A stretch of 48,602 nt of DNA from Candidatus Omnitrophota bacterium (GTDB taxonomy: Bacteria; Omnitrophota; Gorgyraeia; Gygaellales; Profunditerraquicolaceae), in contig JAQTQG010000008.1 of the NCBI GenBank assembly GCA_028712375.1, forward strand, positions 1-48,602. Direction: 5' to 3'. The position numbers and the translations under genes are program-made. The notes under the pieces are model-generated. The model did not search any database. It was not told the DNA's origin and saw only the letters and a program-made list of their open reading frames with translations. Of this stretch, positions 8,913 through 26,022 are shown piece after piece (position 1 is the first letter of the stretch; the number at the start of each line of letters is the position of its first letter).

Positions 8913-9014
8913 CGTCGAACTAAGCCTGGATGTTACGGTTGTTATATATTCAAATATCGAAACGTTCGACGTAAAATAAAATTACTAGCCTTATATAATA
9001 GTAATTTTATTTTA
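8913..9014. repeat. Two-hairpin element copy 1 (R1), at the end of the mreBCD-PBP2-rodA operon
   Basis: The first part is an 8-bp inverted repeat CGTCGAAC/GTTCGACG (8913-8920 and 8964-8971) enclosing 43 nt. The second is a perfect 14-bp AT-only-plus-one hairpin, TAAAATAAAATTAC/GTAATTTTATTTTA (8972-8985 and 9001-9014), extended by two more pairs (T-A, A-T) into the loop. The last arm contains the rodA stop codon (9012-9014). A second copy occurs at 24669-24768 after ftsA. Likely functions are a bidirectional terminator or stabilising 3' UTR, a small RNA, or a MITE/REP-like repeat. Confidence 0.8.
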
Positions 9015-10115
9015 AAACACATTCCTGGTGCGGTCAATATTTACCAGAATCCCTAAAGCAATAAAAGTTACTAATATGCTGGAACCGCCATAACTCATCA
9101 AAGGCAACGGCAGCCCGACTACCGGAGCCAACCCCATATTCATTGCAATATTAATAAATACCTGTAAAGCCAATAAAAACGAAATACCATAAGCCAATAA
9201 CCTGCCGAAAGAGTCCTGTGTTCTTTGCGCAATCACGCACCCCTGGCGGATAATCAAATAATACATCAAAATAAGTAAACTGCTGCCCAAGACTCCCCAC
9301 TGTTCAGAAAAAGTAGCGAAAATAAAATCCGTATGTGATTCCGGTAGAAAATATAACTGACTTTGTGAACCGCGTAACCAGCCCTTACCCAAAAACCCAC
9401 CGGAACCAATAGCAATGCGCGACTGAATAACCGTATATCCGGCCCCCAAAGGATCAATATTCGGATTAAGAAAAACTAACAGCCTTTGCTTTTGATAATT
9501 ATGCAAAAAATGCCAGAAAAAAGGCAATGGTATGATTAACGTAATAAGCAGAATAAAAATATATTTTAAACGCACATTCGTTAAATAAAGTAACCCGATA
9601 AAAACCAGCATCAGCATAAGACCGCTTCCCAAATCCGGCTGCTCAATAATCAAAAACATCGGCACAGAGACAAATATAAACGGCAAAATAATCCCCCGGA
9701 AAATACCGAATTTACCCGATGAAAGCGAAGTATCATCAATCGATTTGCGGCTAAAATACCTGGCAAGAAATATTATAATCGCTAATTTAGCGAACTCAGA
9801 TGGCTGAAAATTAAACCAGGCAAACTTAAGCCAGCGCTGCGCTCCCAGCCGGATTACGCCCAGGCCGAAAACTAAAAGCAAAAAGAACAAAGCCACTCCA
9901 TAAATAAAATAGTTTGCATCCCAAAGCTTGCGATAGTTAAGCCGGGACATAAAAAAATAACAGGCTAATCCAATAGTTAACCAAAGAAGTTGACGCATAT
10001 AAATATCCTGCCAAGCACTACCCTCTTTCTGATAAGTACTGCTATAAATAGATAAAACTCCCAAGGCAGCTATAATTAAAGCCAAAATTAAAATTCTAAA
10101 AAAAGAATTCCGCAT
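9012..10115 (-). CDS. rodA: Rod-shape SEDS peptidoglycan glycosyltransferase RodA
   Basis: The 367-residue polytopic protein (about ten membrane segments) is of the SEDS family. Conserved stretches include RLGAQRW, FQPSEFAKL, the loop before HTDFIFA with its SEDS aspartate, and GLPLPLMSYGGSS. SEDS proteins polymerise lipid II into glycan strands with a partner class B PBP. The partner here is the PBP2 gene directly upstream, whose stop overlaps this start (TAATG). The stop codon lies in the last hairpin arm of the R1 element. Position next to PBP2 and mreBCD identifies it as RodA; the FtsW copy is in the dcw cluster (31898-32992). Confidence 0.95.
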   Translation of the reverse strand: MRNSFFRILILALIIAALGVLSIYSSTYQKEGSAWQDIYMRQLLWLTIGLACYFFMSRLNYRKLWDANYFIYGVALFFLLLVFGLGVIRLGAQRWLKFAWFNFQPSEFAKLAIIIFLARYFSRKSIDDTSLSSGKFGIFRGIILPFIFVSVPMFLIIEQPDLGSGLMLMLVFIGLLYLTNVRLKYIFILLITLIIPLPFFWHFLHNYQKQRLLVFLNPNIDPLGAGYTVIQSRIAIGSGGFLGKGWLRGSQSQLYFLPESHTDFIFATFSEQWGVLGSSLLILMYYLIIRQGCVIAQRTQDSFGRLLAYGISFLLALQVFINIAMNMGLAPVVGLPLPLMSYGGSSILVTFIALGILVNIDRTRNVF

Positions 10116-24622: not shown

Positions 24623-24651
24623 AATTTAAAATGAAGTTAACTCTAGGTCAA
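24623..24651 (-). promoter_or_regulatory. Promoter candidate for the yggS operon
   Basis: Minus strand -35 TTGACC (24646-24651), 17-bp spacer, -10 TAAATT (24623-24628). It lies immediately beyond the R2 element, consistent with R2 ending the dcw transcript and a new transcript starting here. Confidence 0.5.
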
Positions 24652-24668
24652 ACCTAATACGGTTTTGG

Positions 24669-24768
24669 CGTCGAACTAAGCCTAGATGTTACGGTTTTTA
24701 TATATTCGAATATTGTAACGTTCGACGTAAAATAAAATTACCAGCTCTTATTGGGTAATTTTATTTTA
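24669..24768. repeat. Two-hairpin element copy 2 (R2), at the end of the dcw operon
   Basis: The inverted repeat CGTCGAAC/GTTCGACG (24669-24676 and 24720-24727) is followed by the 14-bp hairpin TAAAATAAAATTAC/GTAATTTTATTTTA (24728-24741 and 24755-24768). Positions 24669-24741 match R1 at 68 of 73 bases without gaps. The hairpin loop differs (13 against 15 nt), and the first extra pair is C-G here against T-A in R1, a change that keeps pairing. GTTAC/GTAAC can also pair inside the large loop. The last arm contains the ftsA stop codon (24766-24768). Confidence 0.8.
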
Positions 24769-26022
24769 AAAATACTCCTGATAAACTTCTTTAAAACGAT
24801 TTATTGTTTTAAAAAACAGGTTTTTGGCGGGCTTGACTAAAGCGATGTTTCCCACAGCTTTATTTTCCAGATCTTCGCAGATCATCCCCAGGCAGGTCAG
24901 ATAAGTCAGATACTTTTGTCCGGATAAATCACTATTTTCTTTAGCTAAAGAAGCAATCTCCTGATTATTAATCCGCCCAATAGCCACCGGCATGCCGGTT
25001 ACGCTCTCCATCATCTCAATAAATCCTTCGGTCAGCAAGGTCTTGCCGGCCATAATAAAACGATCGACTTCATGGAGGGCAATTTTTTGCTCCACCGCAT
25101 CCTTAATTTGCGTACAGATCAGGCGGCTGGAATTGGTAGCCATCACCGCCACATCATGCTGCTTTATAGGTTTATAAAATTCATCCTTTTTAACCAGAAT
25201 CTCTTTATCTTCCGGGATATTATTAATTTCCCCGATTACCCCATATGAGCGCTTGATGTCCTCTGCTAATTCAAAATTTATTTTTAATCCTTCTGACAGC
25301 TGCTGGGTCATACTGTTGCCGCCTAAAGGCAGAATCTGGATACTTTGTAAAAGCCCATCTTTAAAAATCAATATTTCTGTTATATCGCTGCCACAATCGC
25401 AAAACACGCTCCTGCCGCGTTTTTCTTCTATGCCAAATATCGCCTTGCTGGTAGCCAACCCCGAGAAAGAAAGGCTTCTTATCTCATATCCGGCCTGGCT
25501 AATCACGCGGCTTAAACTCTGTAATGATGCTAATCGGGCGCACACTAAATACAGGTCCACCTCCAGCCTATGGCTGTATAAACCAATAGGATTAACCACA
25601 TTGCTTTTAGAATCAATAGCATAACTTGAGGGAATCACATGGATAATTTCATCATCCAGGCTTGAGCCCAGAATACGCGCCTGCTCATTGGCAATAGCGA
25701 TATCAGTAGAAGTAATCACCTTATTCCCCCGCTCAGCAAGCGGGATAATCGCATGGCTGTGTTTAGTCAAAATATCCTTGCCTGAAAAATTAGTATGAAT
25801 AAATTTAATTTTTAATCCGGATTTAGCTTTCAGGCTCTTTAAAACTTTGGTCAAACAAATAACTAACTCCGTGGCGTCAACAATCACGCCTTCTTTAACT
25901 CCCCGCGAAGGAAAACAATCGAAATAAATATTGGTTATTTTATTTTTTTTAACCAAAGCCAGCGCTGCAGATATCTTATTCGAACCGATGTCAATAGCGC
26001 AAATATAACTATTATTTAACAT
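24766..26022 (-). CDS. ftsA: Cell division protein FtsA
   Basis: The 418-residue actin-like protein has phosphate loops AIDIGSNKISAAL and CDCGSDITEILIF and a SHS2/1C domain between. The C-terminal amphipathic helix FKTINRFKEVYQEYF is the kind FtsA uses to bind the membrane. It tethers FtsZ filaments and recruits divisome proteins. It overlaps ftsQ by 11 nt. The protein is full length although its stop codon lies in the R2 hairpin. The next gene is yggS, not ftsZ. Confidence 0.94.
   Translation of the reverse strand: MLNNSYICAIDIGSNKISAALALVKKNKITNIYFDCFPSRGVKEGVIVDATELVICLTKVLKSLKAKSGLKIKFIHTNFSGKDILTKHSHAIIPLAERGNKVITSTDIAIANEQARILGSSLDDEIIHVIPSSYAIDSKSNVVNPIGLYSHRLEVDLYLVCARLASLQSLSRVISQAGYEIRSLSFSGLATSKAIFGIEEKRGRSVFCDCGSDITEILIFKDGLLQSIQILPLGGNSMTQQLSEGLKINFELAEDIKRSYGVIGEINNIPEDKEILVKKDEFYKPIKQHDVAVMATNSSRLICTQIKDAVEQKIALHEVDRFIMAGKTLLTEGFIEMMESVTGMPVAIGRINNQEIASLAKENSDLSGQKYLTYLTCLGMICEDLENKAVGNIALVKPAKNLFFKTINRFKEVYQEYF

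Follow-up and report, generated by a model that had tools for sequence, protein, structure and literature searches.

The window analysed here, a stretch of 48,602 nucleotides from Candidatus Omnitrophota bacterium, carries two similar elements of ~100 nt at the 3' ends of rodA and ftsA, raising the question of why a rod-shape gene and a division gene should end in the same way. The original prediction proposed a shared 3' module tying elongation to division, and named as an alternative a repeat family favouring operon ends. Its description of the two elements held in detail. They stand at 8913-9014 and 24669-24768; an ungapped comparison of their first 73 bases gives five mismatches (68/73 matches), the closing arm GTAATTTTATTTTA is the same in both, the hairpin loops are unlike (GCCTTATATAA versus AGCTCTTATTG), and the loop-side pair T-A of one copy is C-G in the other. 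Since a DNA search of the whole genome recovered the second copy at E = 6e-29, the match is not due to chance. Both host genes lie on the minus strand, and their TAA stop codons form the final three bases of the elements (9012-9014 and 24766-24768, TTA on the plus strand). The features of the two loci are the following:

8913..9014, plus strand: copy 1, a 60-nt core closed by stem P1 and followed by a second hairpin, with the minus-strand end of rodA inside (R2 match, E 8.6e-16)
8913..8920, plus strand: 5' arm of P1 in copy 1, CGTCGAAC, read from the sequence, pairing with 8964-8971 and covarying among copies
8964..8971, plus strand: 3' arm of P1 in copy 1, GTTCGACG, from sequence, pairing and covariation
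8972..9014, plus strand: second hairpin of copy 1, a 16-bp A/T-rich stem ending in the rodA stop TAA (minus strand)
9012..10115, minus strand: rodA, host gene beside copy 1 (Pfam FTSW_RODA_SPOVE, 3e-100), last of mreB-mreC-mreD-pbp-rodA
24640..24668, plus strand: probable remnant, the left half of an older copy (ACTCTAGG TCAAACC TAATACGG TTTTGG), read by eye against the core form TCAAACC..GATACGGTT
24669..24768, plus strand: copy 2, with the anatomy of copy 1 and the minus-strand end of ftsA inside (R2 match, E 2.9e-16)
24669..24676, plus strand: 5' arm of P1 in copy 2, CGTCGAAC, from sequence, pairing and covariation
24720..24727, plus strand: 3' arm of P1 in copy 2, GTTCGACG, from sequence, pairing and covariation
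24728..24768, plus strand: second hairpin of copy 2, a 15-bp stem ending in the ftsA stop TAA (minus strand)
24766..26022, minus strand: ftsA, host gene beside copy 2 (Pfam FtsA, 3e-20, and SHS2_FTSA)

On the plus strand each unit thus consists of a conserved core of ~60 nt enclosed by the 7-8 bp closing stem P1 (CGTCGAAC..GTTCGACG in the window), followed by a terminator-like second hairpin, TAAAATAAAATTAC..GTAATTTTATTTTA. Both window copies outdo shuffled sequence in folding by a wide margin (z -4.2 and -4.8). The assignment of 24640..24668 to an older copy is tentative.

The predicted near-consensus promoter before each operon was recovered, with a sigma-70 match of 11/12 and a perfect TTGACA in both cases (TTGACA-17-TAAAAT upstream of mreB, TTGACA-17-TATACT upstream of mraZ). 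The claim that the element caps both operons fell at rodA, where it lies within a series of genes of one orientation. The next gene, encoding a radical SAM protein on the same strand, begins at most 6 nt after rodA in 16 of the 23 genomes compared, so that here the element lies within an operon. On the minus strand at 9037-9009, TAAAAT at the start of the hairpin and TTGACC in the rodA end form a promoter-like site (10/12, spacing 17) reading into this next gene, which did not rise above chance in the scan; nor did that scan reveal any promoter excess at the window sites. Since the stems of both window hairpins are A/T-only and neither copy scored in the terminator scan, they are candidate terminators at most.

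A search of the genome and its relatives with covariance models, suggested together with the original prediction, showed that the element is not confined to these two genes. Among 27 genomes of the genus, and counting matches at E 0.01 or better, the repeat is present in 10 and absent from 17. There are 25 copies in Candidatus Omnitrophica bin-608 (G100), 17 in G081, five in G085, four in G086, two pairs at the contig ends that probably stem from one duplicated region, and three in G000, the genome of the window itself. The third G000 copy lies near recG on contig C61 and has a different palindrome inside its core. When 384 genomes of the class were searched, matches were found in three genera only, all of this one Omnitrophota family; weaker matches in other genera were those of G054 (1e-7), G105 (3e-4), G053 (3e-4), G063 (0.003) and G033 (0.014). 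No Rfam family matched the window or seven loci with copies above the gathering score, in agreement with the earlier remark that no named RNA family was recognisable. No match came from viral contigs, scanned with four patterns of the core, or from a search of plasmids; the strict core pattern found nothing in genome contigs, and a looser one retrieved the bin-608 assembly only. Our literature searches returned no description of an Omnitrophota repeat of this kind.

One location recurs across genera. Behind the 5S rRNA terminator, six species of the genus (G076, G083, G084, G085, G086 and G101) and three of genus g55 (G070, G073 and G075) have a form of the repeat in antisense orientation, and G089 has a copy in front of the 5S gene. 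GC-rich versions of the hairpin with A and T tracts occur at these sites, and by eye the 5S copies fit a terminator. The 5S terminator appears without the core in G000, G100, G096, G077 and G074, and of the genomes whose 5S end could be read, half have no element there. Downstream of 5S in G071 (L217), G004 (L254), G093 (L242) and G094 (L257) we also observed G/C-run hairpins (GGGGGAAG..CTTCCCCC; GCGTTAGGAGGGGG..CCCCCTCCTAAC), together with a fragment of the 5S 3' end in inverted orientation and another 5S end in direct orientation, possibly a separate repeat or RNA.

In the repeat, the outer end of the hairpin adjoins a gene boundary, be it a convergent stop codon, a co-directional ribosome site or ATG, or a tRNA or 5S gene. 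By our own approximate count of 43 well-formed copies, the hairpin overlaps a convergent stop codon in about 8, lies just before a co-directional start with the ribosome site directly after it in about 15, and abuts the 5S 3' end in 4, an outer copy in 4 and tRNA 3' ends directly in 3. Many copies stand inside operons, upstream of a gene. The neighbours, named by us from their sequences, are unrelated (QueH, ClpP, ribosomal protein L13, Apt, PilT, PanE and others). Because hairpins overlap convergent stops in other copies too, the overlap with the rodA and ftsA stop codons is a trait of the family. A reading as promoter or operon leader was dropped, given that neither the neighbours nor the orientations are uniform.

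Comparison of orthologous junctions revealed filled and empty sites, the pattern looked for in a mobile repeat, at rodA, ftsA, tig-clpP and 5S. Behind rodA the element is found in G000 and G081 only (2 of 23 genomes), and the same two genomes are the only ones to have it behind ftsA (2 of 22). G098 lacks it at both genes despite proteins that are 91-92% identical, and none of the 25 copies of G100 lies at either. The tig-clpP gap is occupied by the element in G100 only, the other species having short gaps or other palindromes. Palindromes of the GGGGACGGTTCT type stand exactly at the rodA junction in G086 and G090, and other palindromes lie behind ftsA in G082, G086, G087, G090, G095 and G098. 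Given this filled and empty pattern and the presence of other palindromes, the rodA, ftsA and tig-clpP junctions are general landing sites. TTTTAA on both sides of the G000 rodA copy and TATTT at the G073 5S copy are compatible with target-site duplication, but none could be fixed, the left ends being unclear. Taken together, comparative sequence evidence indicates that the window element is probably one instance of a non-coding, palindromic and mobile repeat that is dispersed in a single Omnitrophota family; the alternative offered with the original prediction was right in substance.

The pairing of the repeat might nevertheless speak for RNA. Among 37 copies, 90.5% of cells pair and double changes number 98 against 29.6 in shuffles, counts that lean towards structure because the sequences were partly collected with a model of that same structure; the signal collapses once partners are slid by one column. 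Variants of P1 stay paired (CGTCGAAC/GTTCGACG, CACCGAAC/GTTCGGTG, CTCCGAAC/GTTCGGAG, CTCCGCGC/GCGCGGAG, CACCTGGC/GCCAGGTG), and second hairpins range from all-A/T to GC-rich with pairing kept. It had been held that many scattered copies without covariation would mean a plain repeat; here, scattered copies covary strongly. The covariation shows that pairing is maintained, and leaves regulatory RNA and DNA palindrome unseparated. A structured RNA family transcribed from the plus strand, as a multi-copy small RNA with its terminator or as a leader, with the copy antisense to the 5S region ancestral and functional and the others duplicates, would account for a core followed by a terminator-like hairpin on one strand, for the recurrence behind 5S in several genera and for the ribosome site that about 15 copies have immediately 3' of the hairpin. 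Two inner helices, AGCC/GGTT and GTTAC/GTAAC, contain many G-U cells and are less well supported; they could form an H-type pseudoknot, a possible structure that is not proven. This tolerance of G-U pairs, as RNA would have, and the recurrence behind 5S, not required of a pure parasite, both count against the mobile repeat, as does the failure to fix a target-site duplication or to find a mobilising gene among the Y1 transposase loci. However, G-U cells number only three in P1 and none in the second hairpin, which leads us to read both as DNA fold-backs; moreover, the window sites lack a promoter excess, downstream genes share no common theme, Rfam gave no match and the 5S site is so often empty. 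As an account of the family a structured RNA is thus improbable; at the 5S site itself a functional RNA is possible. A tRNA-like reading of the core (7-bp stem, TA, a D-arm-like AGCC/GGTT) was also tried and dropped, there being no anticodon arm and the TTCGAAT motif lacking a T-stem.

Less can be said for ordinary terminators of independent origin whose cores are similar by coincidence or recombination. The second hairpin does start at stop codons and at 5S and tRNA 3' ends, with the GC-rich, tract-flanked versions at 5S, but sequence conservation of the ~60-nt core exceeds that of any terminator, and the hairpin must have arrived with the core because no hairpin of this kind stands at the rodA, ftsA and clpP junctions of relatives. 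The silence of both window copies in the terminator scan and the many copies upstream of genes within operons make this explanation highly unlikely. Least credible of all is a regulatory module at both 3' ends, be it a terminator or a small RNA, that coordinates the rod-shape and division operons, a link that we reject: it fits the presence of the element at both operon ends in G000 and G081 and its folding, but such a regulator would be conserved at both genes and scarce elsewhere, whereas nearly all relatives, G098 included, lack it there, dozens of unrelated gene boundaries carry it, G100 alone has 25 copies, and at rodA it lies within the gene run and not at its end.

Further traces of movement come from copies that lie within copies. 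Full nesting with both outer arms kept was found at two loci. At G081:C25 the segments GTTACGGTT and ATATTCGAAT of one unit, whose outer arms CGTCGAAC/GTTCGACG both persist, enclose a second, complete unit, and at the G081 rodA site an inner unit lies between the outer arms CGTCGACC/GGTCGACG. Three other copies bear an extra right half, and at the G081 ftsA site a reading by eye gives a row of about five left halves ahead of a single complete unit. Both kinds of remnant would be explained if units first inserted into one another and the DNA between similar hairpins was then deleted, an order of events that we infer. In G100, left flanks (L042, L068 and L093, for example) often repeat the copy's own hairpin arm and loop (TAAATTAAAAATTACCACT..AGTGGTTGATT) before P1, as if a new unit had split an earlier hairpin.

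The best reading is that the elements of this uncultured lineage form a new family of intergenic palindromic repeats, mobile and self-nesting, with a terminator-like hairpin. We propose that the unit is copied into gene boundaries, often into the loop of an earlier copy, and that insertion may be tolerated, since a stop codon comes with the hairpin and the ribosome site is spared. Deletions between similar hairpins would then strip halves from nested copies, so that half-elements accumulate in stacks. Complementarity of the arms might persist through re-templating of DNA hairpins or through selection for the fold-back. Any effect on transcription would be local at most: the hairpin may weakly terminate or reduce it in both directions, and rodA is tied to ftsA no further. 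A more specific version, which we put forward only tentatively and regard as rather unlikely, is a terminator-seeking, self-nesting element whose structured core and hairpin would be copied into transcription-unit ends and into its own loops by some enzyme or by template switching that hairpins drive, the founder copy standing behind 5S rRNA in several genera.

Among known systems, the RAYT-moved REP/REPIN sequences (Y1, IS200/IS605-like) are likewise dispersed, intergenic, palindromic, non-coding, lineage-restricted and clustered. Compared with these and with GTAG-REPs (PMC3733652), the Omnitrophota unit is larger, with two hairpins over ~100 nt, and shows no 20-40 bp palindrome with an unpaired tag, GTAG being absent from its foot in all 43 aligned copies. 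Nor does it accompany RAYT genes. No mobilising gene was found among the Y1 transposase loci examined, and 21 Y1_Tnp loci in 8 genomes gave no significant match to the element and one weak match within a RAYT coding region, so that linkage to RAYT was rejected; an apparent half-copy near a G081 RAYT gene, located in open sequence and lacking a hairpin, was ascribed to chance. The partners of RAYT genes in this genus are instead the GGGGACGGTTCT palindromes, which occur within a few hundred bases of one at four loci and on both sides of one in G098.

These other palindromes deserve mention in their own right. Members of the GGGGACGGTTCT.. and GGGGTCAGAGCT.. families, some nested in each other, stand at the 3' ends of rodA (G086, G090) and ftsA (G082, G086, G087, G095, G098; L103, L123, L137 and others). 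A further family, centred on TTATAGGAATTG within CACCCGGCGC..GCGCCGGTGTG arms, occupies the tig-clpP gap of G078, G081, G083, G093, G094 and G098 and recurs at about 1912-1960 of L045 and inside L004; the palindrome inserted in the third G000 copy is likely a relative of it.

CGTC-REPs and Rickettsia palindromic elements have been reported as palindromic repeats without a dedicated transposase (PMC3733652), a likeness to our repeat. The CGTC of CGTC-REPs is a tag left unpaired on a palindrome of 20-40 bp (PMC3733652), whereas here it lies within the paired P1 arm, in some copies only and varying to CACC, CTCC or CGCC, and an unpaired CGTC at one end was not seen in the copies. ERIC, RUP and BOX are MITE-like bacterial intergenic repeats (PMC10969869; for BOX and RUP, PMC3049150), and resemble the present one as ~100-nt non-autonomous folded repeats between genes. 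The Omnitrophota repeat differs in its bipartite build of core and covarying hairpin, its frequent self-nesting and the apparent lack of terminal inverted repeats joining its ends, the P1 arms bounding the core and not the whole unit; no parent IS was found, Y1 transposases being those searched. With intrinsic (Rho-independent) terminators it shares A-tract, stem and T-tract at gene 3' ends, most clearly in the 5S copies, but it has a conserved 60-nt core attached, and the window copies, whose stems are not of the G+C-containing kind that a T run follows in such terminators but A/T-only, did not score as terminators. Integron attC sites have the boxes RYYYAAC/GTTRRRY and lie in cassette arrays near an integrase. 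The repeat is like attC in that a 7-8 nt inverted pair ending in AAC and beginning with GTT closes a folded, sequence-variable site; the comparison was dropped, the arms xxCGRRC/GYYCGxx misfitting at the fourth box position and the copies being isolated and not in cassette arrays.

Overall, a regulatory story about rodA and ftsA gives way to a more general one, in which gene boundaries, even those within operons, gather several unrelated palindrome families in these small genomes. The Omnitrophota repeat keeps its pairing as its sequence drifts, and because it nests in itself it records the order of insertions. It also advises caution, since strong covariation, double changes included, is by itself no proof of a functional RNA. 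The series of species assembled here is a ready test set for the movement of orphan palindromic repeats without an obvious transposase.
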